Source of the DNA: Acheta domesticus
Taxonomy: Eukaryota > Arthropoda > Insecta > Orthoptera > Gryllidae
NCBI GenBank assembly: GCA_031308135.1
Contig: JAHLJT010004567.1
Coordinates: 130,564,971-130,628,970, forward strand
Direction of reading: 5' to 3'
DNA length: 64,000 bases
Numbering within the stretch: position 1 is the stretch's first letter; each line of letters opens with the position of its first letter. Below the pieces are notes generated by a model. That model did not search any database and was not told the origin of the DNA. It saw only the letters and a program-made list of their open reading frames with translations. Shown here piece by piece: positions 5,722 to 62,805 of this stretch. Both the position numbers and the translations under genes were made by a program.

Positions 5722-5850
5722 GCGATGATGTGGCGCAGGGAGTCCTGCAGGGTGCGCAGCTCGCGCACGGCGTGCAGCATGTAGGCGAAGTACTCGGTGG
5801 CCGTGGCCGGGTCGGGCACGCGCCGCTCGTTGCTGTAGATGTCGGAGCGC
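5722..5850 (-). CDS. Exon 5 seen of NIT-domain receptor (membrane-proximal helix)
   Basis: A 129-nt exon with acceptor TGTGCGCAG at 5851 and donor GTACGT starting at 5721; a second possible donor (GTGCCC) four bases further would give 133 nt. It starts with one base that completes the TG left by the exon at 19039-19290, giving a tryptophan. The product begins RSDIYSNERRVPDPATA and holds TEYFAYMLHAVRELRTLQ, an amphipathic helix that fits the segment between a NIT domain and the membrane span of receptor guanylate cyclases. Nearly every third codon base is G or C. No following exon is found between here and the left edge, so the membrane and catalytic parts are outside the window. The exon itself is firm; the family call rests on the joined exons. 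Confidence 0.75.
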
Positions 5851-6015
5851 CTGCGCACACAGTCACATATCAGAGGCGCAGCGTTGAATCGAAGTTGGGA
5901 AGCAGGGTTAACGTTTTCTTTAGTTGACAAAAATTACAAAATGGAAAAAATAATCTGATATGAAGTGAAATAATTGTTATTAATTATTGTAATTTATTCT
6001 TATTCTTATTATTAT

Positions 6016-6820
6016 TCCTCTATATCACGACTAAAGATGTTATGTGTCAGCTGAGTATTAAATCTATTCCAGGTTGCAATCTTCTACCTAAGGAGCAGAT
6101 TGGGAATGTCGGTGCCTCTACAATACTTTGCGCAAAATGTGGGCTGTTCCAAATAAAGCGATTTCTTGCATTCCCAGTCTTTTGAATTGCCTGGGAGTTT
6201 AGACAAGTTCTTACACAAATTTTGCGGAACAAATCCCAGAGCTCCGATAACTATCGGTACGGGCTGTGCTTTTACACCCCACATTCGGTAGATCTCGATT
6301 TCCAAACTCTTGTATTTAAGACGTTTCTCTGCCTCCTTGGTAACGACGTTTTGATCGCAAAGTACAGACAAAGTAAACACAATTTTTTCTCCATATCCCG
6401 GATAACTATATCCAGTTTGTTTGCCGCTATCGTGCGATCAGTTTGGATTTGTTGGTCATACAATATTGTACGCTATCCAACAGACGTCACCGGTTTTGTG
6501 AGTGTTTGTAACATTTGGGGCATATGTTCGGATCTTCGAGGGCGGTACAGATCTGCCAGTGGAGGTAGCTACACACCCTGTCATGTCTTTTCAAGTAATC
6601 GATTTTTGCTAGAATTGGACAAGCTGGGACAATATGCTCAATTGTTTCTACGTGTTCCTGGCAAATGAGGTATTTATAATATTGGGAAATTTTGAGAACC
6701 TCTTTATCATAACGTCGTGTTCTCAACGCCTGACTTGGGTAGCTATTATAAGTGCTTCCGATTCTGGCTTCATTTTTCCTCTTTTAAGGCAAATAAATGA
6801 TTGATCTTTATTGATCTGTG
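6016..6820 (-). mobile_element. 5'-truncated R4/Dong-like LINE copy (3' end only)
   Basis: Closely similar along its whole length to 1237-2050. It keeps the zinc finger (CQEHVETIEHIVPACPIL) and a better preserved endonuclease end, including DQNVVTKEAEKRLKYKSLEIE and PVPIVIGALG. The 3' end abuts TTATTATTA at 6001-6015 and the truncated 5' end abuts a TTA tract at 6827-6851. It lies in the intron between the exons at 19039 and 5850. Confidence 0.85.
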
Positions 6821-8265
6821 TGATTGTATTATTATTATTAATATTATTATAAATATCGTAAAGGCCTTGTTGAAAATCTAAATAACTTCTGGATGGATTC
6901 GTATAATCAAATTTGAAAGTTGATTTAGCATTTACGTCATATTTTTCATATTTGTTTAGTTCATCTAAGAACATTATTTACCAATAAAGGTATTTGTCAA
7001 AAATGCATGTTGCAGACAAACCTGTAAACACGCTCTGATGGCTTCTCAATGAAATGCGGAGTCAACATAGTTCCGGATGTAGCGACCACTACTGGATGTG
7101 CGGAAAACTGTACTAAAATTCTATTTCCGTTTTCGAAGTACATGTGCACTTGAATGAAAAAATCACTAACGTCATAGTGTGTAAGGTAAATTTGTAATGG
7201 AGTGTTTCACAGTATTGTAAATATATGAATTTCTGTGCGAATTATTCATTTGGAGCGGAGAGAGAGATTGCAGTAATACAAATTTGACTTCAAAACCCAT
7301 ATTCTTATTCATCGATGCCGGTATTTAGCAAATTTTGATGTTCTATTCAAATGAAACAGCTATTTTGCATATGTTGAGTTAGAATAATATACTATACAAA
7401 CGATTACAAAGTTTGTGGTTCTCACTTCTAACCATTTAATTACATAAATTATAATCTTCGTGCATCCTGTCACCCTGCAATTCGTATATAACGTTTAAAC
7501 ACCCTGCATGCCGTTAATGAAAAATATTTCAATTAAAAGTTCTCTCACTACTTGCAATTATCCTGATTAACATAAAAATTCAATAAATATAGGACAACGA
7601 CTCCACTCCACTTTTTTCTAACGATGCTCGACTAGATCGATTAATGTTTGTGGGTCGAACAATATTCCTTCACAATCATTGATCCATCAATATGTAACTA
7701 TTGAAGAATTCAGTCAATTCCCAAATTCCACTTCTTTACGCTGAACAATTTCAAACCACTTTCGTCACCCCTCATACTTGTTTATAAGCGGAACACTAGC
7801 TACAAGAACAACAAAATCTTATTATCTCGGCGCCTCTTCTTGTAAATCTAACAGCACTGCGCACACCGCCTCTCCTCCAATATGCGATATACACATTATC
7901 ATTTCATGCTGTATTGTTCCTCCAAGGACTGTTTCCCAATAAAGTAATATAAACTCATATTTTATTCTAAACATCGTTTTTAGTATTCTCCTAAATTTTT
8001 AATATTTCATATTTAACCTTTATATTTTCACATCAATCTTCGCAATATTTAGTTATTTTGGCTTATTCTACTTGCTTAAAGTTATAATGTGTATTATTTT
8101 AATATACATGAATAATTCTAATATTTTAAACGTTATTTAAATTTTATTTTATTTTTATATTATTGTGAAAATTCAATAAGTCTCATAAAATTTAAGGAGG
8201 GAAATTCATCCTAAGACACGCCTTTCAATATCATCTTCATCATTATCACCGTCATTATTACTCTA
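6821..8265. other. No gene seen; short TTA tract at its start
   Basis: After a TTA/ATA tract to about 6851, the sequence is AT-rich and unique-looking. I found no reading frame of interest, no terminal repeats and no tRNA-like boxes. Confidence 0.5.
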
Positions 8266-8269
8266 AGGA

Positions 8270-8460
8270 GCTGGCTTCTGTGAGCGTTCTTTATGGAGTA
8301 TGAATCAGCAAGCTACCTTTCCGGCTATGGGTTCCAGAGTTCAAGTCCCCTTCCTCACCCTGAATACGTTAATGGAACTACGTGACCAACGAGATATACA
8401 GGCCTGGGTGCTAGACTCCATGTTTCGATGTCCCGGCCAATATTTCTAATCAATCATGAG
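8270..8460 (+). mobile_element. Possible tRNA-derived SINE remnant
   Basis: The segment has a B-box-like GAGTTCAAGTCCCC at about 8335 within a sequence otherwise unlike its neighbours. A good A box is not evident upstream and there is no second copy in the window, so this is a weak call. Confidence 0.25.
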
Positions 8461-8773
8461 GGAACAAAGAAATTTATTTGCGAGAAATACGATTCCGAAA
8501 TGATTGCCATTTCCACGAATATGATATTCCCCGAGATCAAACGTCCAAATGTTGGCTGTCAGCTGTCATCGACGATTTTCGTTCTATTGAAACGAACTTT
8601 CCCCGCACCGCTCAGGAAAATTCTACAGAAATGTCGTGGTTGGTCATTTATTTAGTGGTAAATCGTTATATTTAGGAGAGTATGAAATGCGTGAGACGAT
8701 TGATGTACAATAGAGATTGAGAGTTTTGTCAAGACCGATAAGTCAAAACAAAATCTGTACAGTATTTTGCACA

Positions 8774-8945
8774 CAGAGGCGTATCTAGGCATTCAGGCGC
8801 TCGTGGCAAGTATCGAATTTTCGCACCCGACTGGATGCTTCAAATGAGAGTTGTTGTTATTTGTTCAAGTGGGTACACTGTAAATAGCGCCCTTAGTCAG
8901 TGGCGCCCATGGCACGTGCCATGCCATACCGTAAATACGCCTCTG
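8774..8945. mobile_element. Short hAT-like MITE, old
   Basis: A 172-bp element with inverted ends CAGAGGCGTAT and ATACGCCTCTG. The flanking 8-mers TTTGCACA and CTTACACA match at six of eight positions, as expected for an aged hAT target duplication. It contains no coding sequence. Confidence 0.65.
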
Positions 8946-8953
8946 CTTACACA

Positions 8954-11900
8954 ACAGTATCTTGCCACAAACAATAATTTCACTGAAGAAATAAATAACA
9001 TTTTCTCCACGGTCGTGTAATATATTTTATTACACGAGGAATCTAAACTTTCAATTGCAAGGTTGGAAAATAAACCCACGATGCATTAGGCGAGAGGATT
9101 AACCAGGTGAGCGAATAAAAAGCGTTGATTTCGCCATTAATACCTTGTTTTATTTAATTTCTACGTTGAAATTATTACAAATACAATTTTCTTGCCTAAC
9201 TGGAGGAGTAATGGAGTATAGATGATGGTAAATTGGCTATCATAGTACGTATAGTAATTATTAAATACGTACCAGTAATTATTAAATGCTCGTGCAAAAG
9301 GTCACGGCGAATATTTAGAATGAAAAGTTCATGCGAATTGCAATTTCAAAATTATTATGAATGAAAATATAAATATAAAACTTGTGTATGAAGTTGAGTT
9401 CAAGACCCTAAAAACGTCAGTGTGTTTGCTTAGAAATGGTATATAACCTACCAAAATGCAATAATTTGTATCAGGACTGGAAAAAAAGAACCTTCTTACG
9501 AGAAACCGAGAAAGACGTAGAATAAATAATTTTATTATTGCTTTTATAGAATCCTTTCTATTATTCATTCCGATAAGGTGAGCTTCCACAGATGATGATT
9601 GTTGTTATTACTTTAGTTGTCAAAGTTCATGTGCCTTTTTTACTAGAAATACCTACATACATGGTGACTCAGTAAATATTACAAACTTCTAGGAGATGTA
9701 GAGGGTCGAAAATGGTAAATTTTTGCTAATGAACATGTAGGGGAAATTTCATATAACGTAATTATATGCATATAATACATGTGGCCTTTGACGCTGATTT
9801 TGAAGCAATATTGTGAACATAGATGTTAGGCAGGCCTCGTTCTAATGCAGTCAACGGTATTTTATGTCGAACAAGTTTGGCAAAAATCAGAAGTGACATA
9901 CATAAATGCATATAACTCCATAATATGCAATTTTCCAATTTACGTTCATTTGAAGAAAGTGATTAATTTACTGACGCATCTACTTGCCCTAGACGTAAAT
10001 AATTCTGATACATCTTGTATACTCGTAAGATGAATTGTTCTAATGTTTTTCTATATTACTGCGTTTCAATTTCGTAATAATAAAATAGATAATCAAAGGT
10101 TTCTAAAATCTAAATACGAATATTCACTTTTTTTACTTTAATTTGCGTGAATAACACTTGTAACGGCCATACAAATGAATCTTCGTTTACACATGTCGTT
10201 GCTAAGAAGTTAAAAGAATGTATATCACATGAAATTAATTAAACATGCTTGTTTTATGAACCTTGAAATGTTTTCATTTATAATCTTCATGGTTTCTTTG
10301 AAACGCAGCGTCACACATCTTTGTGAATGATTTTACAACAAAGATTGTGGTCTGTAATCGAATGTAATCAAATGTAAAGAAAGTATGCCTAGCGTATTGT
10401 TAGTAAACAAATTTCATCATTAAAAAATGTTACAACTAGGTAAACCCTTGCGATTCCATAGCACAAAAGGAACAATTGTAGAAGAGTCATAGCTGAAAAC
10501 TAAATCATTTGCATAAAGAAAATAGTTATTTTGTATACGGGAAATAGAAAACCCCAAATATATTGTTACGCGATGTTCAGTACTTATTCTCCAAGACTAA
10601 TGAAATTAGAGAGGTTAACAAATTTAGGAACAAGACAATGACAATAAATTACAGTAAATTTGCCTAAAATTGCCAAAATATTTAAGTTTAGACAATTTGC
10701 GAAGAAATGGAAGAGCTAAGAAGTTGAAAATATGCATTTAGAAACATTGTAATATTATCAACGAGGTTTCAAGTTTTTTCAGAAACTATTATCTTAAAGC
10801 CTGGAATATGTTTTTAATACTAATTTTTTTCGGTGACTTAGCTGATATTTTTTACTATGTATTATTTTATGAAAAACTGACTTTAATTTCATTGAATATA
10901 TCAAACAAAGGTTGTGCAAGTAGGGTTGTCGTGCGTCCCGATTACTCGGGAATGCCTCTTTTTACCCGGTGTCTCAATTTGTCTCGGTGTCTCAATTTGT
11001 CCCGGTGTCCCAAGAACACTTTGGTGGGGGCGAACCCGATTTTTGAAAGTAGTTTGAAGAGTCGATTAAACACAAAGCTGTGAAAATATTTCTGGCTAAT
11101 TTTGAAGCTTGAAGATGATGAGAATAATGAAGATATGGTAACTAAACAAACAGATACTAGATTCTGTACAGGATGAAACATTAGAAATAATATCCCACTT
11201 ATACATACGAAAAAGCTCTCAGTAAACCCGAAATTAACCCAAAAGTTGTGTTGCATTTTGCAAAGACAACTGCGGTACAAATTTTGATAGACTAAAACGT
11301 AACGGTGATGATAAATTCTTTCACTAAAGAGAAAATTCGAAAGGATTAGGAAGGAGTGGGCTGTCCAACCAACATTTTTGCAACACTATTTCATTTCCTG
11401 TAGGCATCTTTGCGGTATTTGTTGCGGTAATTTTAGAGACGATTTTTATTATCTTTCAGTTTTCACAAAAGGCAACGCTAAATGTACTGAGTTTTGTGAA
11501 TTTCTTGATATTTGTTGCAGATAACGTCCGTCTCAAAGACTTGACAGCTGTGTTAATGTATGCATTGGAAAAAATCTTATACACGTGCGAAGAAGTTAGA
11601 TTTCGTAAGTTCGATTTCTTATCACAAGAAAAGCCACCCAAAGATTCTAGAGAATTTTTCTCCAATCCTCTATCTGAAGTTATTTTTGGTTTCTCAATCT
11701 TCAGTTGAGTTTATTGTGCAAACACATTAAGAAAGTTGGGAGCAGTGACATTCTATGAAGGAAGTGAAATTTATAGTTGAAAACACATGTTCGTACAAGA
11801 GAGTTGTGTGAATTTCATAATTGCATTGGTGTCGTGCATTGGTGCTTGGGAGGTTACGTTTTAACGCAGTCAATGAGATTACATGTACCAGCCGCATTTG

Positions 11901-14390
11901 GATATATACATTCAAGACAACTATATACGAGCATATTCATATAATTCCCTCTGACTAAGATAAATATATTGCCCAACACCCTACCTCTGGTCCCACTGGG
12001 AGGTGTGGTAATTACACGATCGTGATTTATTTGATGTATTTTTCATGTCGTTAATACGTACGTTTTTTAAATATTTTCGTATTTTTGAATACAAGTTCTT
12101 CAAGAAATTTCCCATGAAGTTCCCCGAAAATTCAAATGTTTTCTGTGAAAATGAGCTCAAGTGAGCGTATTGAGACACGCTCAAACGACATTTTCGCGAA
12201 AACGGTCTCAAATTTTTCAATGTAAAATAGCATGAAGAATAAGGTTTTACTCTTCCATAATATTCCTCAAGTCAATTGTACCATTAGGGTACAAAAAAAA
12301 TTGAGAAAATGTAAAATATAATTTAGATGCCGATAGATTACAGCTGGGAAGAAGGCAGAGCAAAACCAGGAAGCTAGCTCAGACTGAAGACATACGGAAG
12401 CTAACTAGTACGGGAATATCTGCGTCATTCTGTAGCACTACTAGTTTGATATTCTTGGTACGTAAATAATTGTTGTATTTAAATACTTTACTATGTTAAA
12501 TGTAAACATACTATACTATGTTATTGGAGTATGAAGACTGTTTTTGGTAAAATTTTTAATTAATTGCAGTGTTACGGGAGCGTATTTTCTTTATTGTCCT
12601 TAAACAGTCAATATACTATTGGAAAACATTATTGGAAAATATTTGTGTAATTTGTTTCAGTAGCGTTTTCGTGCTGTCTACCACTAGTAATTTATTAAAT
12701 GCCCTTGCGATATTACAACGCCACGCCCTTTCTGTCAGTTCTCGACGGTCGGTGACCACGGGGAGGGAAGTAAGGAAGTAGCAGGCAGTAGCAGCCAAGA
12801 CAGGCTGGCGGCTGGCAGTTCAGGGGCGTTTGGTTCTAGGTCGCCCAGGAACCCCGTACAGCATTAATTCCCCCCTTGGTCAAGTCCAAAGGTAACCGTT
12901 GAGAGGGCGCTGCCCAACTTTACTTCCCTTTCAACGAGCGGCCAGCGACAGGCGACTTTTCTTTAAACTTTCCCCTCTCCAGTATCGCTAGAGAGGCCGG
13001 AATTTATTCATTATTCGAGATACAAGTTTGTATTGCATCCGATTAGGCTTTCGAAACTTAGATGGTATTTTTAAGAAAGGCCCTCATCTAAACTTCCTTA
13101 TTCTATTTAAAACTAAACTAGCGTGCCGGTGCGAGAACTCTCGCATGCTATACCCCACCCTCTTCCTTATTTTTGCATTACCATATAAAGCCTGTAATAT
13201 ATACTTTTCTTCAAGACCCTCTTATCCTCCGTCACTTGTTCTAAATGTCACCTTGCAATTGATAACAATATAGTACTCCCTTGTCAATACAAACTATTCT
13301 TATTTTACTTTATTATCGAGCAAAGAGGTACACCCGTGTAATTCAATCGCATAGAATATCAAGTAATTAGTAATTTCACATACAGTTGCAGATTCTACAG
13401 GCTGTGAACAGGTGGGGTAGAATCGAAACGCGTCGAGGCAGCAAAAACGTGATAGAATGGTCAAGAACATCTCATCTGTAAATTACGGTGTGAGGAGGTA
13501 ATCATTTCTTTGAGGATTTTGGCCTCAACATTTTAGTTTTGAAGGCCCTACAATGCTTCGTTTAAGAGTTATTTAATGATATAGATTCAAAAATCCGGAC
13601 GTGCCTCGCGGGTTGCATTTTGCATGAATATTTAGATGCGTTTTTTTTAAAACAAATCCTCCTTATTTTTAAAATCAAAGTGCAATTCGCCACGTCTCAG
13701 TGAAATTCTCTTTCTTTAGAGATCTCATTTATAAAGACTGGTTGCGTGTGAGAGCCGAAAAGGGAAGGTATACTACTGAAATAATATAGGAGATGATTAC
13801 AAATGCGGCTTTGGGCTCTTATTAGTTACAAGGACGGTCATGTATTCGGCGGGCCAGTCCATGACCGCATTCGCGGGGGCGGCTTCGACGGAGATGTGAG
13901 GCGGGCGTAAGGGCCCGAGCGGGGCATCTGGATGCGATATGCATACCAACGCTGAGCCGGGCGGGCGGGCGTTTGTCCTTCACCACAATGGCATGGATGG
14001 GAAATCACGCTCACATGCAACCGGCAACTCACATTACTCCGCAACTATTTTTACCGTCGCGCATAGCTCGGAAACTATGCGTCCTTAAAACAAGATTTTT
14101 GTGTTCCTTCAGGAACACGTTATGCTTTTTATGTCGTAATCTACAAAATGAGACATTTTTGGACCTTATTACATTTTTGGAAGATTCCCTCACTATCACG
14201 CTGTCGATCGGATTGCCTGAAACGCTGGAAGTTGGATTCCCCAGTGAAGCTATTTTCACTTTTAAAACAACGATGTAAAAAGTAATATTATTTGGAGACT
14301 GGAATTTCTTTTGAAAAACATTTGTGCTATTCTATTACTTTTTTGGAGTTGCCGCTCTTGGAGCCACTTCCATTTTAATTTCCAGAATGC
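8954..14390. other. Intronic AT-rich DNA, no gene recognised
   Basis: Within the 13.2-kb intron. There are small oddities only: two and a third copies of an 18-bp unit (GGTGTCTCAATTTGTCYC) at 10968-11015, a GC-richer patch at 12700-12960, and another at 13840-13990. Short open frames such as 11496-11708 have no recognisable motif. Confidence 0.5.
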
Positions 14391-14394
14391 GTAA

Positions 14395-14645: not shown

Positions 14646-14708
14646 TGGAGTCTGAGTTGTTTCTTAAGCAGAATTTTACAAATGAAACCCTTTTGAACCT
14701 TTTTTTTT

Positions 14709-17550: not shown

Positions 17551-18870
17551 ATGAATGGGAGGCGGAATGGGAGGCGGAATGGGAGGGGGAATGGGAGGCG
17601 GAATAGGAGGCGGAATGGGAGACGGAATGGGAGGCGGAATGGAGGCGGAATGGGAGGCGGAATGGGAGGCGGAATGGGAGGCGGAATGGGAGGCGGAATG
17701 GGAGGCGGAATGGGAGGCGGAATGGGAGGCGGAATGGGAGGCGGAATGGGAGGCGGAATGGGAGGCGGAATGGGAGGCGGAATGGGAGGCGGAATGGGAG
17801 GCGGAATGGGAGGCGGAATCGGAGGCGGAATCGGAGGCGGAATCGGAGGCGGAATCGGAGGCGGAATGGGAGGCGGAATGGGAGGCGGAATGGGAGGCGG
17901 AATGGGAGGCGGAATGGGAGGCGGAATGGGAGGCGGAATGGGAGGCGGAATGGGAGGCGGAATGGGAGGCGGAATGGGAGGCGGAATGGGAGGCGGAATG
18001 GGAGGCGGAATGGGAGGCGGAATGGGAGGCGGAATCGGGAGGCGGAATCGGAGGCGGAATCGGAGGCGGAATCGGAGGCGGAATCGGAGGCGGAATGGGA
18101 GGCGGAATGGGAGGCGGAATGGGAGGCGGAATGGGAGGCGGAATGGGAGGCGGAATGGGAGGCGGAATGGGAGGCGGAATGGGAGGCGGAATGGGAGGCG
18201 GAATGGGAGGCGGAATGGGAGGCGGAATGGGAGGCGGAATGGGAGGCGGAATCGGGAGGCGGAATCGGAGGCGGAATCGGAGGCGGAATGGGAGGCGGAA
18301 TGGGAGGCGGAATGGGAGGCGGAATGGGAGGCGGAATGGGAGGCGGAATGGGAGGCGGAATGGGAGGCGGAATGGGAGGCGGAATGGGAGGCGGAATGGG
18401 AGGCGGAATGGGAGGCGGAATGGGAGGCGGAATGGGAGGCGGAATGGGAGGCGGAATGGGAGGCGGAATGGGAGGCGGAATGGGAGGCGGAATGGGAGGC
18501 GGAATGGGAGGCGGAATGGGAGGCGGAATGGGAGGCGGAATGGGAGGCGGAATGGGAGGCGGAATGGGAGGCGGAATGGGAGGCGGAATCGGAGGCGGAA
18601 TGGGAGGCGGAATCGGAGGCGGAATGGGAGGCGGAATGGGAGGCGGAATGGGAGGCGGAATCGGAGGCGGAATCGGAGGCGGAATCGGGAGGCGGAATCG
18701 GAGGCGGAATCGGAGGCGGAATCGGGAGGCGGAATGGGAGGCGGAATGGGAGTCGGAATCGGAGACGGAATCGGAGGCGGAATCGGAGGCGGAATCGGAG
18801 GCGGAATCGCAGGCGGAATCGGAGGCGGAATCGGAGGCGGAATCGGAGGCGGTGGTGGAGGCGGAGGCGC
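17551..18870. repeat. 12-bp minisatellite, about 110 units
   Basis: The unit is AATGGGAGGCGG, with an AATCGGAGGCGG variant and rare 13-bp AATCGGGAGGCGG units. Because 12 is a multiple of three, long frames stay open in several frames on both strands, giving spurious proteins of 440-480 residues (GGGM, EAEW, GRRN or HSAS repeats). None has a plausible start, splice context or unique domain. One strand is very G-rich. Confidence 0.96.
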
Positions 18871-19038: not shown

Positions 19039-19290
19039 CAGTGCGAGGCGTTGAGGGCGGCGGGCGTGGGGGGCAGGGCGAGCGCCAGGGCGCGGGCCGG
19101 GCCGCGCGCGGCGGCGCGCGTGAACTGGCGCGTGGCGGCCAGGTAGTCCCTGCCCAGCGAGTCGTGGTACACGAACTGCGCGAAGGCCGACGGCGGCAGG
19201 TGGCCCGCGCTGAAGTAGCCCAGGCCGTACACGGACGCCGCGCTCAGGTGCTCCACTGCGCTCAGGATGCTCTTGTACGCCACCAGCAGC
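19039..19290 (-). CDS. Exon 4 seen of NIT-domain receptor (second half of NIT)
   Basis: A 252-nt exon with acceptor GTGCGGCAG ending at 19291 and a strong donor GTGAGC from 19038. It takes two bases from the exon at 46850-46999 to make an arginine codon and leaves TG for the exon at 5722-5850. The product starts LLVAYKSILSAVEHLSA and goes on GYFSAGHLPPSAFAQFV, YHDSLGRDYLAATRQF. This matches the NIT pattern of a helix with LLxYxxLLxxxE, a G-L-xx-F/Y turn and a YLxxAxxF helix. The end (AARGPARALALALPPTPAAL) is low-complexity and alanine-rich. Third codon bases are almost all G or C, unlike the surrounding intron. Predicted to lie outside the cell. Confidence 0.8.
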
Positions 19291-24599: not shown

Positions 24600-25690
24600 T
24601 TTTTAGCGTCCTTTGATAGATACGAGTATGGGGAGAAAATTTAAAGAAAAAATTGAGTCCTTTTTGAGAAAACAATTAAACTAATAATATTTTTGAAAAA
24701 TTGTACATGGCCTTAATTCAAGATTTGTTTGAAGAACAGATTTCAATAAGGAAAAAATCTCTTTCTGTCGAAATAGATGGATTGATGGATAGACGAATAG
24801 ACGGAGAAAAGGAAAGGCAGAGAGAAGAAAAGTCGGAGAGAAGAAAAGTGGGAGAGAAGAAAAGTGGGAGAGAAGAAAAGTGGGAGAGAAGGAAAGTGGG
24901 AGAGAAGGAAAGTGGGAGAGAAGGAAAGTGGGAGAGAAGAAAGTGGGAGAGAAGGAAAGTGGGAGAGAAGAAAGTGGGAGAGAAGGAAAGTGGGAGAGAA
25001 GGAAAGTGGGAGAGAAGGAAAGTGGGAGAGAAGGAAAGTGGGAGAGAAAGGAAAGTGGGAGAGAAGGAAAGTGGGAGAGAAGGAAAGTGGGAGAGAAGGA
25101 AAGTGGGAGAGAAGGAAAGTGGGAGAGAAGGAAAGTGGGAGAGAAGGAAAGTGGGAGAGAAGGAAAGTGGGAGAGAAGGAAAGTGGGAGAGAAGGAAAGT
25201 GGGAGAGAAGGAAAGTGGGAGAGAAGGAAAGTGGGAGAGAAGGAAAGTGGGAGAGAAGGAAAGTGGGAGAGAAGGAAAGTGGGAGAGAAGGAAAGTGGGA
25301 GAGAAGGAAAGTGGGAGAGAAGGAAAGTGGGAGAGAAGGAAAGTGGGAGAGAAGGAAAGTGGGAGAGAAGGAAAGTGGGAGAGAAGGAAAGTGGGAGAGA
25401 AGGAAAGTGGGAGAGAAGGAAAGTGGGAGAGAAGGAAAGTGGGAGAGAAGGAAAGTCGGAGAGAAGTCTTCTGTCAAATCGTTTTTCGGTATCAGGAACC
25501 CACAAAACTGTTAAAGTAAGTAATGTACTACATGTAGCAATAAAACGAATCCACTTTTTGTTACTAATTACAGTGTTCCAGAATTACAGAGTTTCTGCCG
25601 AAAAATTGCTGATTTTGGAGCACGTTTACAATACTTTCTCTTCTTACGTAGTAAGTCGAGAAACTACAGTAAAACAATGTTTTACTTAGT
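24600..25690 (+). repeat. Repeat family U, copy 2, interrupted by a minisatellite
   Basis: The left part (24690-24800) matches the monomer middle and the GATAGACGAATAGACGG box. The right part (25475-25640) matches TTTTTCGGTATCAGGAACCC and TTTCTGCCGAAAAATTGC. The 16-bp minisatellite lies exactly between these two blocks. Confidence 0.7.
24825..25465. repeat. 16-bp homopurine minisatellite, about 38 units
   Basis: The unit is GTGGGAGAGAAGGAAA, almost all purine on one strand except one T. Since 16 is not a multiple of three, each frame repeats with a 16-residue period, giving spurious proteins such as VGEKESGREGKWERRK. Not coding. Confidence 0.96.
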
Positions 25691-42722: not shown

Positions 42723-43465
42723 ATGTTCGTGTGTCTTTTTGTGAGCGTGAGTGCCTTTCTGTCTGCGTGGGTATCTTTTTGCACGCTTGGGTGTCTTTCT
42801 GTGTGTGTGGGTGTCTTTCTGTGTGTGTGGGTGTCTTTCTGTGTGTGTGGGTGTCTTTCTGTGTGTGTGGGTGTCTTTCTGTGTGTGTGGGTGTCTTTCT
42901 GTGTGTGTGGGTGTCTTTCTGTGTGTGTGGGTGTCTTTCTGTGTGTGTGGGTGTCTTTCTGTGTGTGTGAGTGTCATTCTGTGTGCGTGAGTGTCATTCT
43001 GTGTGCGTGAGTGTCATTCTGTGTGCGTGAGTGTCATTCTGTGTGCGTGAGTGTCATTCTGTGTGCGTGAGTGTCTTTCTGTGTGCGTGAGTGTCTTTCT
43101 GTGTGCGTGAACGTCTTTCTGTGTGCGTGAGCGTCTTTCTGTGTGCGAGAGTGTCTTTCTGTGTGCGTGGGTGTCTTTTTGCGTGCTTGAGTGTCTTTCT
43201 CCGTGCTTGGGTGTCTTTCTGTGTGTGTGTGTGTGTCTTTCTGTGTGTTGTGTCTTCTGTGTGTGGGTGTCTTTCTGTGTGTGTGGGTGTCTTTCTGTGT
43301 GTGTGGGTGTCTTTCTGTGTGTGTGGGTGTCTTTCTGTGTGTGTGGGTGTCTTTCTGTGTGTGGGTATCTTTCTATGTGTGTGAGTGTCTTTCTGTGTGT
43401 GCGTGGGTGTCTTTCTGTGTGCGCGTGGGTGTGTCTGTGTGCGTGTATTTCTGTCTGTGTACCAT
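42723..43465. repeat. 20-bp minisatellite, about 36 units
   Basis: The unit is GTGTGTGTGGGTGTCTTTCT, with variants in which the middle GTGG is GTGA or GCGT. The ends are more diverged than the two homogeneous blocks (42790-42960 and 43255-43365). Cysteine-valine or histidine-threonine rich frames over it are repeat artefacts. Confidence 0.95.
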
Positions 43466-46849: not shown

Positions 46850-46999
46850 CGCCAGACGCCGCCGGTGTTGGTGTCGCGCACGATGCGGCCCAGCTGATCG
46901 AGCACGTGCTGCGTGGCCTCCGAGTACCACTGGATGGTGGGCAGCGCGCGCAGGGCGGCCTCCTCCTCGTCGATGGCGCCCTGGCCCTCCGCCCAGCCT
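46850..46999 (-). CDS. Exon 3 seen of NIT-domain receptor (NIT middle helix)
   Basis: A 150-nt exon with acceptor GTGGTGCGCAG ending at 47000 and donor GTGGGTGG from 46849. It needs two bases before it and leaves CG, which with the first G of the exon at 19039-19290 makes arginine. The product starts GWAEGQGAIDEEEAALRA and holds TIQWYSEATQHVLDQLGRI and TNTGGVW. In NIT domains a helix with a W-Y motif comes between the first helix pair and the LLxY helix; the order here is right. Codons end mostly in G or C. The flanking introns are 14.6 and 27.6 kb. Confidence 0.8.
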
Positions 47000-53913: not shown

Positions 53914-54394
53914 TTAGCCTTTTGATGTTTGTTTTTCATAATGTAAAATTTTGACTTTGTCAAATGCAATAGAATGGTTAAGTTCCGTCCTATGCTTGGT
54001 TAAAGATGTATGCAAATCCGCGTCTTTGTTAATGTCGTATTTATGCTGGTATATCCGTCTGCTAATATATTGCTTAGTCTCCCCAATATACACCTGCTGA
54101 CAATCATTGCAAGGAATGGAGTATACAACATTTGATTTATCTCCTAGTCTAGGTTTATCCTTCTGCTTGTCATAAAGATGGCTAGTTTTATTTAGATTGT
54201 AAAATACAATGTCTAAATTGTATTTTCTGAAATAGGCTTTTATTTTATCATTGACAGGTTCATAAAATGGTAAGGGTATTCGTAAATTTGTATTGCTGGT
54301 AATTGTTTTGGATTTGTGTGTTAATCTTTTTGAATATATTTATTAATAAAGAATGATGGGTAGAGATTGTTTTTCAGGATATTTTCGACTATCT
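53914..54394 (-). pseudogene. GIY-YIG endonuclease part of the Penelope-like element, out of frame
   Basis: From about 54325 the frame gives KAYFRKYNLDIVFYN, then VVYSIPCNDCQQVYIGETK, ISRRIYQHK, LTKHRTELNHSIAFDKVKIL and a stop at 53914. The cysteine pair in IPCNDC, the YIGET box, the RRIxQH arginine and the HSIAFD segment fit the Penelope-type GIY-YIG nuclease. It is separated from the polymerase by two probable single-base losses, in A runs at about 54398-54403 and 54327-54331. With those shifts it would be the C-terminal domain of the same protein, about 770 residues in all. Confidence 0.8.
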
Positions 54395-56230
54395 TTAGAT
54401 TTTGTTGTGAAATTCAGGATTAGCTAAATTTAGAGCGGAATCTACAAGATTGTAAACCATGGCTATTTTTTGATTCTTAGAATGCTTGGATAGATAATTT
54501 AAAACTCTTCCTGAAAAGGTTGGCTTTTGATACCAGTCTGTTATAATTTTATTTTGTTTAACAATTAATTTAAGATTTAAAAAACTAATTTCTCTTTTTT
54601 CGTTCTCAAATTCTGTGGTAAAGATTAACCTGGGGTGGAATTTGTTATGTATATCGACCAAAGTGTCGACATTGGATTGATGTAAACAAGTAATCAAGTC
54701 ATCCATGTACCTGTAATAAAATAAGACATGGAATTGAATTTGGGAGAAGCAGAAGACCTCTATTTGTTCCATGATTAGATTGGCAAGTACAGAGGAAACA
54801 GGAGACCCCATTGCTAATCCAAAGGTTTGAAGGTAAATTTTTTTGTTAAAAGAAAATGCGTTGTTATTTAAAATGGCTCTTAAACCTATTAAGAATTGAT
54901 CTAAGGATATGGGGGTGTATTTACTAATGTCAGACCAATGTTCTTTAATAATATTATCAAATAATTCAATTGGGATGTTGGTATATAAAGACTTAACATC
55001 CAAAGAGCAGAGGATATATCCAGGTGGAATGGATATAGAATCAATGCATTTTTTAAATTGCAGAGCATTACTAACATGACTCGACTTTTTTCCTGTAATG
55101 TGGCTTAAAATTTGATGGTAGAATTTGGCTAATCTGTAAGTAGGGCTATTAATACCTGCTACAATAGGTCTCATAGATAAAGGTTGCTTATGGATCTTAG
55201 GTAAAGTATATAATTTTGGGATGACACCATTGTGACATATGAGAGAATTTTTTTCATTTATAGAGATGTATTGTTTTTTGTGCCAATCATTAATTAAGAA
55301 ATTAATGTTGTTCTGTAAAGATTTGGTATTATCTTTAGGGATATTTTTATAGGTGTTAGTATCATCCAATAGTTTAAAACTGTTATTAATATAATCTTGC
55401 TTATCCATGATAACTGTAACAGCTCCTTTATCAGCTGTTGTGAGGAATAAATTTTTGTTATATTTAAGGAAATGTTTGGTTTTCTTATAAATGTTGATTA
55501 TAAATTTGTCTAAACCATTGGATTTTTGATTTTTTAAAGAGTTATATAGAACATTGCAGATTTGATTCCTTAACTTATCTCTTTGATTATTATGCAAAAA
55601 TTGTAGATTATTTTCCACATCACATATGTAATTGACAATTGGAATATTCTTTTTCACTTGAGGTAAACCAAATTTAGGTCCTAAACTTAAAAACTTTTGT
55701 ACATCTAAATCAATAGGCACATCAGTTAAATTTAAAATCCACTTGCTATGGTCAAAGTTGAATAATTGTTCTTCGAAGCTTAACTGTTCTTGCACCAATA
55801 TAGTAATTTTGTTAATATATTTATTCTGTAGTAGCTTGGTTAACTTTTTACTTCTGTTATTCAGAAGGTAAATAATATTTCGAAGATCTTGGTCGTCTAT
55901 TATACTTTTTATATATCGTTTTAGTTTACTAAAAGTTTGATTAAGATTTCGTATGCTGTAGTATAGGTCATCAATTTCCAATCTGAGAATTCGATCTTTT
56001 ATAGAAGTTATTATATTATAAAATTTTTCTCTATATTTTGAATTATCGAATGTAAAATCTTTACATATATTTATTAAATGTTTTGGTAGAACCCCTATTT
56101 TTTTACATGAACATAAAAACACTTTTTTGTTGAGAGACTGTATTATCTTCTTTTTAATGTTCAATAATTTGGCAATGCAACCATAAACCGCTGATCCATA
56201 CCTTGTTTTAATTAGTTTGAAAAATCCCAT
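54395..56230 (-). CDS. Penelope-like reverse transcriptase
   Basis: A 611-residue frame. LSLGPKFGLP (181-190) is the box seen upstream of the polymerase in this class. Polymerase motifs follow: TADKGAVTVIMDKQDY (265-280), LPKIHK with MRPIV (343-356), motif A LDVKSLYTNIP (410-420), motif B MGSPVSSVLANL (474-485) and motif C YYRYMDDL (505-512). FLNLKL further on is also typical. All catalytic aspartates are present, so this part is intact. The protein is rich in K, N and I, matching its AT-rich DNA. The frame stops just after NPEFHNKI, before the endonuclease; see the next entry. The first methionine is used as start; an earlier start was not seen. Confidence 0.92.
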   Translation of the reverse strand: MGFFKLIKTRYGSAVYGCIAKLLNIKKKIIQSLNKKVFLCSCKKIGVLPKHLINICKDFTFDNSKYREKFYNIITSIKDRILRLEIDDLYYSIRNLNQTFSKLKRYIKSIIDDQDLRNIIYLLNNRSKKLTKLLQNKYINKITILVQEQLSFEEQLFNFDHSKWILNLTDVPIDLDVQKFLSLGPKFGLPQVKKNIPIVNYICDVENNLQFLHNNQRDKLRNQICNVLYNSLKNQKSNGLDKFIINIYKKTKHFLKYNKNLFLTTADKGAVTVIMDKQDYINNSFKLLDDTNTYKNIPKDNTKSLQNNINFLINDWHKKQYISINEKNSLICHNGVIPKLYTLPKIHKQPLSMRPIVAGINSPTYRLAKFYHQILSHITGKKSSHVSNALQFKKCIDSISIPPGYILCSLDVKSLYTNIPIELFDNIIKEHWSDISKYTPISLDQFLIGLRAILNNNAFSFNKKIYLQTFGLAMGSPVSSVLANLIMEQIEVFCFSQIQFHVLFYYRYMDDLITCLHQSNVDTLVDIHNKFHPRLIFTTEFENEKREISFLNLKLIVKQNKIITDWYQKPTFSGRVLNYLSKHSKNQKIAMVYNLVDSALNLANPEFHNKI

Positions 56231-56268
56231 CTTGCAGGTTCTTCAAAGTTTAAGGTCAGTGATGATAT

Positions 56269-56640
56269 TGAAATTGATGTAAATTCTCCTGTTGATCCTG
56301 ATATAATTGTAGGCGTTGATGGTACGAATAAAGATATGTATTTGACCATATAGGATCAATCAAATTGATTACAGGAATTAAACTTCTTTTAAAAAACATT
56401 TATTATTGGCTCAACGTTTCGCATGCTTTGTACATGCCTTGTCAAGAGCAATTATGGCAACGGTTAACAATGTTAAATAAATTAATATAAAACAATAGAA
56501 TTTACAATTTTTAAGTTAAATATTTACAATACTGTTACATCCACAAAACCCTGAAGGTTTGTCAAAACAAATATTTACATTATGCAATTGATGAGAGTAG
56601 CACATTTAGATATGTTATGAAAAACAAACATAAAAAAGGC
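56269..56640 (-). repeat. Terminal-repeat unit, upstream of the reverse transcriptase
   Basis: Begins TTGAAATTGATGTAAATTCT as the left unit does and differs from it by a few bases. Probably carries the element's promoter. Confidence 0.85.
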
Positions 56641-57122
56641 TAATCGCTGAAATGTTGTATATAATAATGAATGATACGATGAACACAAAAGTGACATACA
56701 GAAGCTGAACCAAATTTATAAAATGTTAATGCTGCACCAACTTCCATAATTGTGTTTTTTTTTTTTTTTTTTTTTTTTTGCCAATCCTACATGTTTGAAA
56801 TGTTTATTCCTTAACATATCTAAATGTGCTACTCTCATCAATTGCATAATGTAAATATTTGTTTTGACAAACCTTCAGGGTTTTGTGGATGTAACAGTAT
56901 TGTAAATATTTAACTTAAAAATTGTAAATTCTATTGTTTTATATTAATTTATTTAACATTGTTAACCGTTGCCATAATTGCTCTTGACAAGGCATGTACA
57001 AAGCATGCGAAACGTTGAGCCAATAATAAATGTTTTTTAAAAGAAGTTTAATTCCTGTAATCAATTTTGATTGATCCTATATGGTCAAATACATATCTTT
57101 ATTCGTACCATCAACGCCTACA
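56641..57122 (+). repeat. Inverted 5'-truncated Penelope-like piece
   Basis: Plus-strand copy of the end of the endonuclease frame (AAAGGCTAATCGCTG), 3' region, T tract and terminal unit. It is joined head to head to the minus-strand unit near 56620-56640. Confidence 0.85.
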
Positions 57123-57135
57123 GGTAAAGATTTTA
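57123..57135. repeat. Right target duplication of the Penelope-like element
   Basis: GGTAAAGATTTTA, identical to 53381-53393. Confidence 0.8.
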
Positions 57136-58035
57136 GTTTTTGGTGTCGTTAGGCTAACGCCGAAATTAAAGATGTCCCAGAGGTCAGTGAGTATGCGCGG
57201 CGATTGTAAAGCTCTATGTGCTGCGAAAAGTCGACTACCGCCCGAGACTACCAGCCCAGCGCGCGGAGTACGACCTGGAACTGCGCGTACCACCTTTGTG
57301 AATCTGAAGCCACCGATCGATCAGCTGTCGGATGCCGTCGGTTATCATTGGTTGTCGTCGCTTATCGTCGGTTGCGTGTTGCCCGGCGTTAGGTGAAGTC
57401 GGTCTCCCGCTCGTAGCGTTCTCAATTGATTGTGGAGATCCAGAAGTCTTTCGAAGCCGTTGAACTACCCTTTCCAACATCACGTTCACCGCTCACATTC
57501 AAGTACACACGTATTAAAATTAGCAGATCATGAACAGCGTTGAAGCCACGCAGCTCCAAAAGAAGTTAAAACAATTGTCATGGAGAGGGAGATTTGGAAA
57601 GAGCTGGTAAAGTTAAACACTTTTATGGAAAACAAGAAAATAGTAATTATTACAAGATTTTGCCATTAAAATCCTGATTTTATTTTACAAATATGATTTG
57701 AAATGTATAATAAAGGCTCGTAACACTTACACATAGACAAATTAAGAAAATAAATGATTAATATGTTTCAAGAAGTTTATTTGGTTATAATGATCTCTGA
57801 ATGATGAAACTAAAATAAGAGAGAGTAAATTATATTACGTACGACTTCAATAAAGTCTTCCTTGTTCTCATCCTGTAGAAGCCAGTGAAAAATAACCGTA
57901 CGCATTCGCCGAGAGGGAAATACAATTTCTTAAATGTCACATTCAGAAAATAAACATTGCCAAGAAACCCACGCCCAACGTCATGAATGGCAGAACTTGA
58001 AAAAGAATCTGTGGACGCGTTCATTCAACAAGTTG
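57136..58035. other. No gene seen; GC-richer at 57170-57430
   Basis: A CpG-rich patch follows the Penelope-like element, with GTCGGTTATCATTGGTTGTC-like short repeats of GTCGGTT/GTCGCTT. No supported exon. Confidence 0.45.
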
Positions 58036-58038
58036 CAA

Positions 58039-58222
58039 GTTATCTAGGATATGTGGACGAACCGCTTCTCTGTCGGGGGAGGGGGGCTGAAGTTCCGAAA
58101 AACGTATTATGGCCTTCCTCAGAGCGTACTACATAACAGTGCACCCTGAGGAAGGCCACAATACGGAAACGTCAGCCACCACGACAGAGACGTGGCTCGT
58201 CCTTGATAGCCTAGGTAATACC
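58039..58222. repeat. Long hairpin with CTGAGGA...GAAAC words
   Basis: Two arms of about 80 nt, pairing from TATCTAGGATATGTGGACGA at the left to TCGTCCTTGATAGCCTAGGTA at the right, with a loop of about 10 nt. Both arms contain GGCCTTCCTCAG or its complement. On the plus strand CCTGAGGAAGGCC is followed by GGAAACGTC, the words of a hammerhead core, though stem II is poor. Confidence 0.65.
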
Positions 58223-61200
58223 ACTGCTTTCAAGGTCGTTCAAGCACGGTAAAGTTCCCTACACTGACAGGCGGCAGGAGCCCGGTCGGTCGTGCGCAGT
58301 TGTGTTACACAGAATGCAGAACTCGAAGCGGTTGATAAGAGCCGAAATCGACGCAAATGCCATTAAAAATCATTGCGAGCTTGTGTGCAGTCTAGAATTC
58401 AAAGATTCTTCCTTTCTTCCGCCTTTTCCATCTCTGCTAATTATTGGCCAATAATTTTTTTTCTATCAGTTATATCCATTACGGGATTTCGCCGATGTTG
58501 TTACCTGCTGCCAGCGTTAATTTGAAACATCATTTTTTATATTTTTCAAATAAACCAAGATCCATTAATCCGTGTGTCTTCCAACCGTGACTTTTCTTAG
58601 TCAGGTTACTTGGGATTGCAACATTTCGAGATTTTCGACACGTCTTTCTTTAAAACGCGTGGGCATTCTTCGCTACGAATGCTTAAGGTAGGCACATCAA
58701 TTCAGCACGAAGGATTCTTACAGGTGTCATTAATTCCTCATTTCTCAATCCTAAATGTCCCTTTTTAGATTTATCGAGAGTGTAATAATTTTATTTGCGT
58801 TAATGTATAAAACTATCTGTGAATATCCCAATATAATATAATGCCAAAATCTATTTTTAAAGTATTAGCTATAAATGAATGTGAAAAAAGTTATTGGAGC
58901 GATTTATATGAAACTTGGAGATTCAGCGTACATATTTTAGTCGTATTCATACGTAAGTTGACCCACACCCTTCTTTTTCCATTATTTGAAAAGAAACATT
59001 GTGTTCAATGTACTATCAGTAGTAATTAAAAAATATTTCGATAATACATACAGCACATTTCTGGTAATTTTATCAAATCGAACTCTTAAACTGAAGAAAC
59101 AGCTTCAATGACGCAATTATTTTACGTTTTTGGGCGCATGGTATATCGTATGGGTTCGGTCACAAATTGACCCTTACGTCTAACACTATTAACGACATTT
59201 TGCAAAGTGTTCACATACGGTTAGAGAAAATAGAATAATTTCTTTAAAAAAAATAACATGAACTTAATCGCATAAACATATCAAATTACCTCTCACACGT
59301 TAAAAGTCAAAAGGGATGACTTACACAATTAAAGACAAGAGGGAGAAGATGTTTGTTGGAAACATTAGGATGTATGGGAACTATAGTCGCTCACTGTCGA
59401 CCGACCATTTGATGAATAGAGATTTGACTCACTGGGATCAAACGTTCATAACTGAGAGAATTATTTTTAAATGATATCTCCAAATTGTCTTTCTTGCATC
59501 TGAACTGTTAGGAAGGATGTATTGTAGAACGAAATATAAAATATTATTTAAATAATTATTTGACATAAAAATATATATTTTCTAATAAAGAACTACTGAA
59601 ATACTTAGATTCAAACATTGTGGTTTTATCTCAGCTTCTACTATTAATTTATATTTGTTTTTTAATTATTCATTTTAATATAGTTAAAAGTACATTCTTC
59701 CAAAATACCACAAATGTCAAAATAAGTTCTAATATTATTATACAGGTATACTGATGTTTAAAAAACCTAGTATGTTACTTCCGCCATCCCTAATGGCAGT
59801 GTGTAGTGAAGGTGGCACGTAATTTTCTAGACCATTTAATATAGAGAAATATTGAATTCTTAACAATAGTAATCATATTGTTAAATAGGTTTGAAACATA
59901 TTTCATAATTATTGCCTGATATTTATCATTACTTTATGAGTAAATTAATTAATATTAATACATGTTTTCATTCAAAATAATGAAAGAGGGCTACGAAAGA
60001 GAGCAAATCAATTTCTAAGTATAATAAATTGTAATGAGCATTGTCCTTCAATTAACTTAGTGTAGCTATTAAGTTCTGAATATAAAAATTAATATGTGTA
60101 AACGTTTGTAACGTACCTTGTACCATGTTTTTCGGAAAATTTGAGTGAGCCAGAGAACACTTATTGGCGTGTTTGATCATTATCATGCCTCCGCTACTGC
60201 CACCATAGCCAATGAATTGGAAACGATTGAAAGCAGATGATTAAATCGCCGGAGCGTAGCAATCCCACTACCGATTGAGCCAGCAGTTAGTGGAGGCATG
60301 GGGAGACCACCACAGGAGAGATTATACAGGAGATAATTGGGGGCAAATAACATCGATTGAATTGCAATCCCTTTCAGAACAGTATATGAATTAAGTCTGT
60401 GGTTTTTGTGCAGTTATACGAGTATACGATAAAATACTTTGCAAGGTTCGCATTTTTTAATATCCTATCACGAAATATTTAAAAAGGAAAAAAAATGATT
60501 AACGTAAATTTCTAGAGAGATTAATGAGTATTAACCCTCGCGACCAAGGACAGTACGTTTTCTTAGAGTACTGATCAAAGGGTTTTTTCTTTCATGTAAA
60601 ATATCTTGGTAATGTTGCATGAATTAACAGAGCAAATCGTAAACTAGAATTGTAAATTTTTACGCATCAACAATAATTTTTAATAAACAGAATCCTCGAA
60701 ATTGACAATACTGCACTGATTCTCAATTCGTCATTCAGCTGTTCAATCCCAATTTCATGGTACTTTCTCATTTAAGAAATGTTTTATACCAGAAAACATT
60801 TTCAAGGTTAATTTGTTACTCAATGGTTCTCCAGGTTGCGCTTTTAACATATAATAATAACAACATATCTATTAACGTTTTTCTTTATTCGAGAATTTGA
60901 AAATAAATACTTAAGGTTCACCAAGAATGTCAGATGATCGGTGTCGCGACTGAAATATTATCTAATTGCTCTAAAATGTGTATATCTATTTGTTTTATAT
61001 TTTTTTAATGAAATGAGTGGAGGAGTTCATAAACAATGAACACTGCCAAATAAGGTCAATCATAATGTGTGCATTGTAAATACATGGTTTAAATTACTTT
61101 TGACTGCAATTAAATTCTGACTTTATAGTGGGAATTTAAATATTTAAAATAATGAATAAAGATTCAATCCAAAAACTTCAGATTGCTTTAAATTTTATTT

Positions 61201-61580
61201 GTAATAACTTCTGTAGAACATAACATTGCAACAGCCCCTTGAGAATTACTTACGTCAGATTGAGAACCTCTCCTCTCTTAGCGCTGCATGCAACAATAAA
61301 GGAGAGTACGTGGAATTATGATACTATTGAATCTGAAAAAGGAACAAAACAACATTCATACGAACTTTTGCTTTGGAGAGAAACGGACAATCGATGAAAA
61401 CATATTTAAAAGGTTTTATGTTTACTAAATATTAAGTTAAAAGCGCAGCGAGCAAAAAGAGCAAGAAAGCGCTAAAGAGTAGGAATAGGAATATTCAGAA
61501 AGTAAAGTTAAAATTTAAGGATTTGGGGAAGGTAGAGAGCAAAATAGAGGAGAAACTTATAGATTCTATGGGGATTTTAC
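58223..61580. other. Intronic DNA, no gene recognised
   Basis: AT-rich. A small imperfect inverted repeat (CATGCCTCCGCTACTGC with its complement near 60285) lies at 60185-60301. No supported frames. Confidence 0.45.
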
Positions 61581-61699
61581 CTGAGAGCATCTAGATGGTG
61601 CCACAGCGCCTCTTCATCTTGATGACATCTCCCCATGTGTGACATTGCATTCTCTGAATGGTCGCGTTTGTCTCGTAAAACGCTGACAATAATTCTGTT
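61581..61699 (-). CDS. Exon 2 seen of NIT-domain receptor, with a frame anomaly
   Basis: Acceptor TGTCTGCTTTCAG ends at 61700 with a good pyrimidine tract; donor CTCAG/GTAAAA starts at 61580. Entered in the phase left by the exon at 62714-62805, it reads RTELLSAFYETNATIQRMQ, a close match to the second NIT helix (xxFxETNxxIxxM), then TWGDVI, but it meets a TAG stop before the donor. The last 38 bases in another frame read DEEALWHHLDALR, also as expected, and end in the phase needed by the next exon. So one base seems missing: the length is 119, not 120. The alternative is an upstream acceptor at 61713, giving a 132-nt open exon with a peptide (NRIIVSVLRDKRDHSENAM) that does not look like NIT. 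Confidence 0.7.
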
Positions 61700-62713
61700 C
61701 TGAAAGCAGACACTGCAATTCTTTCAATGTATTCAAGAATACGGACCTGTCTGAAAAGTATCCTTGCCATGCAAAGTAATCTGTAGTCAGAGTCGCTTCG
61801 TAAGAATTGCCTGTATGTGCAAGCGTTACTGTTTAGCTTCACTGAGGTAGAAAACAGTTCTGGGATTAGCCATTGTGAGGTCTATTATGTGTGCGTCGCA
61901 TTTCTGTTTCGCTCAACATGATAAACTCGGTGGACCGCAGATAATGTATTAAGTGGTGTCAGAAAATTTGGTGATTTCTAATCTACAGCAATTTTCATTA
62001 ATTATAACACGTTTATAGATGACAAAGAATGGGAACCCAATTCAATGAGTTGTTCAAACTGGCGAAAAATATCTTTTCTCAAGGCAGGAAACAAGTAGAT
62101 AAATACAGAGCAAAATGAGGATATTGCTCCTTGGCAGTCGTGTAGTGAAAGTGACCACTGGTAAAGACAAGCGGTAGTTTACCGTTTTAACAGTCGAGAA
62201 AAAGTAATATAGACTTGACTTTAGAGCGACTAACCATTCCAAAATACGCCTTTTATGTTTGTGTCTAGAAATGGAAGGGTCTGTTGAGTCAGTGTTTTGA
62301 AGTCAACGGGCCTGCTTTTGAAGGCGTGTTAGAGAGCTAACCCTAACGTGTAAGCAAGTTTGTTTTCTCCTCAGAAGGTCGGATACTTTTAAGACAGGGC
62401 TCGTATTGTTGAGGACGTCAGTAGATTGTTCTTTGATGGTTTGATTCAACGTCCTTTTGTCTTGGAATTAACAATTGATAAGATAAAAAATAAGTTTAAT
62501 AGGTCTTTAATAGGCTATTTAACATTTCCTTTTATTTCTTTGTATGAATGTTCTCTGCACTATTCTTCTGAGAATATTAGAGACAACATCCATGAACACA
62601 TTGAGTTCATTATTTATTCTACGTATTTCATTATTCATGTTGAAAATATTAATATTCAATTTAGAGTAATGTGATAAATATTAAAGTTAAAAGGTATTTC
62701 AGAATTGTCTTAC

Positions 62714-62805
62714 CTGTTCAGATCGTTCATAACTACATAGGCAACCCTGGCCCTTTCTTCTTGAAGTGCTGTCAACAGCCGCACTACGTCTACTGTAAGC
62801 TCGAT
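62714..62805 (-). CDS. Exon 1 seen of NIT-domain receptor (first NIT helix)
   Basis: A 92-nt exon with acceptor CATTGCTGTAG ending at 62806 and a strong donor AACAG/GTAAGA from 62713. It starts in phase 0 and leaves AG. The product is IELTVDVVRLL followed by TALQEERARVAYVVMNDLN. The core LQxER after a leucine-rich helix is the hallmark of the first NIT helix (HALQxERG in many members). The exon is not GC-rich, unlike exons 3 to 5. Upstream exons coding the signal peptide and start lie right of the window or were not found. Confidence 0.75.

Follow-up and report, generated by a model that had tools for sequence, protein, structure and literature searches.

A long, split gene of Acheta domesticus that probably encodes a NIT-domain receptor guanylate cyclase

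A stretch of 64,000 nucleotides of the Acheta domesticus genome (assembly GCA_031308135.1, contig JAHLJT010004567.1, positions 130,564,971 to 130,628,970 of the forward strand; referred to as the window, with window position p corresponding to C2935:130564970+p) carries on its minus strand five short exons that, when joined, match the NIT sensor domain nearly from end to end. These exons belong to a gene with at least 12 exons that very probably encodes a NIT-domain receptor guanylate cyclase of the animal type (NIT-GC), one lacking a kinase-homology domain, the five window exons forming the extracellular sensor part of the predicted protein. An earlier reading of the window made from its letters (the sequence-only reading) had proposed one split receptor gene of this type spanning the window. 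There is indeed one gene; however, it extends beyond the window, covering C2935:130531081-130633283 (about 102 kb), with introns that reach 27.5 kb and at least 635 coded residues.

Five window exons and their joint match to the NIT family

All five minus-strand exons proposed by the sequence-only reading were found where it had placed them, preceded by AG and followed by GT (E1 to E5 in Table 1), and the sizes and phases claimed for exons 3, 4 and 5 (150, 252 and 129 nucleotides (nt), each entered with one base and left with two) proved accurate. Splice sites were scored with a metazoan consensus, the ranks being taken among all GT or AG dinucleotides of the window. On this scale the donors of E1 to E4 belong to the top 2% and the five acceptors to the top 4-9%, and the donor of E5 is an ordinary one (top 9%). 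The further claim that the four internal junctions agree in phase holds for E3 to E5 but not for E2, which at 119 nt breaks the frame: in the phase that E1 dictates, its reading meets a TAG codon, and the donor can be joined to E3 solely in a different frame.

The peptide encoded by the joined exons (249 residues, with XX placed at the exon-2 break) matches the Pfam family NIT (PF08376) with 60.3 bits (E 4.9e-16) over profile positions 2-236 of 239, far above the curated cut-off of 24.9 bits, and so agrees with the proposal that the joined exons make up a NIT domain. When the 120-nt exon 2 of a second copy in the assembly (described below) is used instead, the match is 60.4 bits over the same profile positions. 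E3 to E5 joined give 49.9 bits and E2 to E5 51.2 bits, so that E1 adds about 9 bits and E2 only 1.3 bits over E3 to E5. E1 carries the match up to profile position 2, while E5 lengthens it from position 181 to position 236. Scanned singly, E4 reaches 22.2 bits, under the cut-off, and none of the three other pieces (E1 with the start of E2, E3, and E5) matches any Pfam family. Reversing the exon order lowers the score to 27.1 bits, and a rotated order gives 41.9 bits split over two stretches. Ten decoys for E1 and E2 were made from five shuffles and five open stretches of the window; the eight that were scored lie between 47.4 and 48.7 bits compared to 60.3 bits for the real exons, which therefore add signal, most of it coming from E1. 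Matches of the joined peptide to DNA_pol_B and DUF1877 remained below their cut-offs and were taken as noise.

Evidence that makes no use of the profile comes from the G+C content at third codon positions (GC3). A scan of the whole window, on both strands and in all frames, finds open stretches of 126 nt with a GC3 of at least 0.97 only at E3, E4 and E5 on the minus strand. A looser scan (72-nt stretches, GC3 at least 0.95, with a filter on the difference between GC3 and the G+C content at second codon positions) returns only E3 to E5 in their exon frames together with the mirror frames on the plus strand. We regard it as confirmed that the five exons are real and that their arrangement is beyond chance.

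Other searches for the NIT part were silent. PF08376 found nothing in the cricket genome itself, probably since single exons are too short, and likewise nothing in the 14 control genomes; the NIT part gave no match in NCBIfam and none in the PDB up to E 1 or up to E 10.

The gene beyond the window and its cyclase

Inspection of 200 kb to the left and 20 kb to the right of the window in the same assembly revealed seven further exons, one upstream and six downstream. The latter, a membrane exon, a helical linker exon and four exons for the cyclase and C-terminal part, lie 5.6-33.9 kb left of the window on the same strand, ordered and in phase, and an AATAAA begins 86 bases past the end of E11. 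The sequence-only reading had suggested a search for membrane, kinase-homology and cyclase exons on this side; the first and last are there, but a kinase-homology domain was not found. Across the whole gene, 10 of the 11 junction phases agree, the sole exception being exon 2. In the left 5.7 kb of the window, the filter for a membrane exon passed a single repeat-like frame and nothing else, and positions 62806-64000 yielded no candidate for an upstream exon.

Table 1. Exons of the window gene, the sister gene and repeats in the window. Positions are window coordinates unless a contig is named; phases give the bases in and out of the exon.
Feature	Position	Strand	Length and phase	GC3	Content
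E0	68066 to 68313	minus		0.98	right of window; first membrane segment LYLGQAVLLPFLPIAALIA; preferred among four candidates for its donor and hydrophobicity
E1	62714-62805	minus	92 nt, 0-in/2-out	0.50	NIT start, IELTV...LQEER...NDLN; AG/GT borders, strong donor
E2	61581-61699	minus	119 nt, 1-in, donor 2-out only after frame change	0.62 and about 0.47 (two pieces)	...FYETNATIQRM...DEEALWHHLDALR; frameshifted here
E3	46850-46999	minus	150 nt, 1-in/2-out	0.98 (in frame)	NIT middle, ...TIQWY...TNTGGVW
E4	19039-19290	minus	252 nt, 1-in/2-out	0.99	NIT, LLVAY...GYFSAGHL...NASHW
E5	5722-5850	minus	129 nt, 1-in/2-out	1.00	last NIT helices, ...VRELRTLQDSLRHIIA; weak donor
E6	-5688 to -5559	minus	130 nt, 0-out	0.53	second membrane segment IAITLLVMVLAISPVIILL
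E7	-8152 to -8030	minus	123 nt, 0-in	0.93	linker helix
E8	-10959 to -10746	minus		0.52	cyclase
E9	-18954 to -18736	minus		1.00	cyclase
E10	-33665 to -33574	minus		0.37	cyclase/C-terminal part
E11	-33889 to -33752	minus		0.30	cyclase end and TGA stop
Sister NIT-GC gene (predicted)	C2935:130967500-130988792	same as window gene			cyclase matches and five exons located by tblastn
Penelope-like retroelement	53914-56242	minus			E2-E3 intron; reverse transcriptase open reading frame of 615 residues and a GIY-YIG piece
LINE-like (long interspersed nuclear element) pieces	2288-4723	minus			E5-E6 intron; broken reverse transcriptase PF00078 at 2950-3471
Tandem array	1-418				15-base units
Tandem array	17553-18852				12-base units, 108 copies; ends less than 190 bases from E4
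Tandem array	24803-25466				16-base units
Tandem array	42731-43460				20-base units

The frameshift in exon 2 raises the question of whether the gene is intact. A DNA search with exon 2 against its own assembly (2.33 Gb, 6511 contigs) finds two places, the window and contig C5620 (locus L028), where the exon measures 120 nt and is in frame; with this version the remaining junction fits as well. Comparison of 3.2 kb of the two copies shows 25 gaps against 7 substitutions; 24 gaps are single-base, and 17 of these fall in runs of at least three equal bases. Since so indel-heavy a difference is what one would expect of long-read consensus error, and since the second copy is in frame, the frameshift is probably an error of the assembly consensus and the gene not broken, although it may be a real allele. 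A decaying pseudogene copy of an NIT-GC, in which the frameshift is real and fixed, would agree with the out-of-frame 119-nt exon and with the lack of GC3 bias in E1 and E2. Against this stand the in-frame second copy and the type of differences between the copies, and, moreover, the 11 other exons found are open and the motifs of the cyclase can be aligned with their counterparts in natriuretic peptide receptor 1, so that we consider a pseudogene improbable. Two other treatments of exon 2 were tried and dropped, namely an unshifted exon beginning at an acceptor 13 nt upstream (55.1 bits, with a very poor acceptor score of -7.0) and an exon read throughout in the frame in which it is entered, the stop being replaced by X (56.5 bits).

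Searched against Pfam, the 635 residues match Guanylate_cyc (PF00211) with 221.6 bits over profile positions 1-182 of 183, and the genome-wide search with this profile picks up E8 and E9 independently. The downstream exons thus point to the guanylate cyclase type of NIT receptor that had been proposed and to no other kind of receptor. NIT scores 56.9 bits in this context with XX and 57.1 bits with the intact exon 2, in both cases over profile positions 2-236 of 239. At the linker helix there is a match to the last 38 of the 216 positions of HNOBA, with 24.4 bits in a fragment and 22.6 bits in the 635 residues (cut-off 23.4). The haem-binding domain HNOB has no Pfam match in the 635 residues, and membrane segments are present, unlike in soluble guanylate cyclase. 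Judged by hydropathy only, the two top peaks of the 635 residues flank the NIT domain, with values of 2.97 in E6 (IAITLLVMVLAISPVIILL) and 1.98 in E0 (LYLGQAVLLPFLPIAALIA).

In a PDB sequence search with the linker and cyclase part (minus E10 and E11), natriuretic peptide receptor 1 ranks first (228 bits), ahead of guanylyl cyclase C (205 bits) and the soluble cyclases (140 bits), and E7 aligns to the stretch ahead of the cyclase of natriuretic peptide receptor 1. The aligned stretches FSDIVGFT, KVETIGDAY and YCLFGDTxNTASRMES are kept; in guanylate cyclases such stretches carry the residues for metal binding, guanine selection and the transition state. This order of similarity is also what one would expect of a natriuretic-peptide-type receptor guanylate cyclase, equipped with a kinase-homology domain and merely bearing a NIT-like stretch. 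However, Pfam finds neither a kinase domain nor an ANF-receptor (peptide-receptor) domain over the 635 residues, exons upstream of E0 lying outside this sample, and the 0-out border of E6 joins the 0-in border of E7, so that the membrane exon is joined directly to that of the linker, as it is in the sister gene described below. A receptor of the natriuretic type is accordingly very improbable.

A sister gene, the points that remain and the base composition of the exons

The genome-wide PF00211 search lists 99 matching stretches, three of which, at C2935:130967500-130976067, lie on the same strand as the window gene and 334 kb from E0 and belong to a separate gene. In 50 kb on the 5' side of this separate gene, a tblastn search with the window gene locates five exons, three with E values of at most 4.3e-7 and two weak ones (0.028 and 0.35). 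Their lengths of 132, 240, 129, 130 and 123 nt compare with 150, 252, 129, 130 and 123 nt for E3 to E7, the last three being identical; the phases are identical throughout and the joined frame is open. Four introns occupy matching places in the alignment of the two genes, and the donor after the last sister exon matches too. The NIT part of the sister reaches 64.5 bits over profile positions 84-238, compared to the 49.9 bits of the window gene's E3 to E5 over about the same stretch, and the two proteins share 39% identity over 241 aligned columns from NIT to linker. Counterparts of E1 and E2 were not found in the 50 kb searched.

A genome search with the NIT and membrane exons of the sister yields six matches at E values of at most 1: three in the sister itself, two in the window gene (E4 and E6) and one on contig C2959, which falls where a second-copy E6 would lie. 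C2959 also carries two PF00211 matches with scores and spacing near those of E8 and E9, one of them crossing stops, which apparently represent a second copy. To this search two predicted NIT-GC genes are visible in the genome, and more distant ones could be missed. It is conceivable, though we think it rather unlikely, that the window gene, lying near a sister with the better NIT match, has diverged as the second NIT-GC of its animal group and has been free to change its ligand, and that the neighbours form a nitrogen-oxide receptor pair with split roles like NIT-GC1 and NIT-GC2 of Platynereis. As for the assembly, contigs C5620 and C2959 look like second haplotypes that were left unmerged, and one-base indel errors are probably numerous in it.

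That five unrelated open stretches were merely chosen by eye for their likeness to NIT motifs, as the poor single-exon scores and the lack of any match for E1 and E2 alone might suggest, is hardly credible in view of the significance of the joined match, its drop on reversing the exons, the absence of any scored decoy above 48.7 bits, the downstream membrane and cyclase exons that follow in phase and the repetition of the exon phases in the sister gene.

Several observations nevertheless weigh against an NIT-GC gene as modelled here. E1 and E2 alone have no match in Pfam, and they lack the high GC3 seen in E3 to E5; the latter objection is tempered by the equally low GC3 of the secure exons E6, E8, E10 and E11, for which reason the idea that E1 and E2 are a foreign relic was dropped as well. 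Weak splice sites occur at the donor of E5 and the acceptors of E7 and E9. The first membrane segment, in E0, is only moderately hydrophobic, the 5' border of this exon is uncertain, its start having been guessed among acceptors, and neither the start codon nor the first coding exon or exons were found in the 20 kb of right flank. Finally, the protein search against insect receptor guanylate cyclases recommended by the sequence-only reading turned up no relative: the NIT part found nothing at E values of at most 0.001 among 7999 scored candidates with a query X-padded to widen the length filter, and nothing at E values of at most 0.1 among 7749 candidates with the unpadded one. A control search with the Penelope open reading frame of the window returned 57 proteins, some of them insect-named and one from a frog, so the database includes animals; the word-based method may have missed NIT-GCs, or their lengths may lie outside the filter.

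The alternation of GC3 along the gene (Table 1) is an observation in its own right. On several sides of the high-GC3 exons the G+C content drops back within about 50-150 bases, and it stays high further out upstream of E0, on the repeat-rich side of E4 and on the downstream side of E9. We compared 20 stretches from six other cyclase genes, the sister included; these stretches, picked from the 99 of the genome-wide PF00211 search, are profile matches that may include some intron bases, and their grouping into genes is ours. Their GC3 ranges from 0.38 to 1.00, with one gene reading 0.97, 0.38, 0.91, 0.46 and 1.00, and the swing is therefore not peculiar to the window gene. The swing might result from local GC-biased gene conversion. 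A literature search, in its listing of papers, turned up no report of such a swing, which is no proof of novelty.

Among the repeats of the window, the Penelope-like element has named relatives in beetles, a sand fly and a frog. Elsewhere in the assembly, contig C6096 holds two cyclase-bearing frames of 619 residues (L023 256-2115) and 359 residues (L025 724-1803), intronless in the piece examined, which by eye look like parts of membrane adenylyl cyclases.

Predicted working and relation to known NIT-domain cyclases

The anatomy read from the gene, in the order membrane segment 1, NIT, membrane segment 2, helical linker, class III guanylate cyclase and stop, suggests a mode of action in line with the family. 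Two subunits would form a pair, in contact at their linker helices and cyclase domains. A signal in the form of nitrite, nitrate or another nitrogen oxide derived from nitric oxide (NO) would bind the extracellular NIT domain, and the resulting change would travel by way of the second membrane segment and then the linker helix to the cyclase pair, which would turn GTP into cyclic GMP (cGMP) inside the cell. The receptor thus envisaged probably senses nitrogen oxides and makes cGMP.

Drosophila CG33958, which presumably carries a NIT domain, is a probable arthropod relative by class. PMC10248080 describes it as an inferred membrane guanylate cyclase receptor and places it among the cyclases uninvolved in NO reception, which speaks against a general NO role in insects. 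In PMC4390571, CG33958 appears in a table of genes with larval and adult astrocyte expression.

In 2006 a third class of animal guanylyl cyclases was described from insects and sea urchins, in which an extracellular NIT domain is joined to a signalling helix and a cyclase; the class was predicted to sense nitrogen oxides outside the cell (PMC1592074). According to PMC7400543 (2020), the NIT domain of placozoan NIT-GCs is flanked by two membrane segments, PF00211 lies at the C terminus and the proteins group with the natriuretic-type cyclases; NIT-GCs occur in many bilaterians, arthropods included, and a pair of conserved arginines at the NIT interface is given as the likely ligand-binding site. 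Candidates for this pair in the window gene are the arginines of LQEER and ELRTLQ, that of ELRTLQ being common to ELRKLQ of the sister. Both papers propose NIT-GCs as receptors for nitrite, nitrate or NO that are separate from the classical haem cyclases (PMC1592074; PMC7400543). Within the literature consulted, only Platynereis NIT-GC1 has a shown role: NO feedback to photoreceptors is reported to require it (PMC10584369). With a gene model that is almost complete and a sister gene, one animal offers two testable receptors. The combination of a joined-exon profile match, a GC3 scan and the comparison with a second copy that explains a frameshift provides a way to trace a very split gene.

Compared with known systems, the window gene resembles natriuretic peptide receptor 1 (GC-A) in its linker helix and cyclase, which align over 177 residues, but the peptide-binding and kinase-homology domains of that receptor were not found in it. 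With bacterial NIT proteins such as Klebsiella NasR it shares the NIT sensor domain by profile; in NasR the output is an RNA-binding ANTAR domain, whereas in the window gene it is a cyclase behind a membrane segment. The animal NIT-GCs described in insects and sea urchins in 2006, in placozoans and bilaterians in 2020 and as NIT-GC1 and NIT-GC2 of Platynereis in 2023 are like the window gene in having NIT between two membrane segments, a C-terminal PF00211 domain of the natriuretic-type cyclases and no kinase-homology domain, and probably a linker helix as well; compared by description only, no feature was seen that separates the window gene from them. As it shows most of the defining NIT-GC features tested and contradicts none, we file it as a member: on the strength of its sequence, the gene is a further representative of a known, though little-studied, family, reported in insects since 2006.

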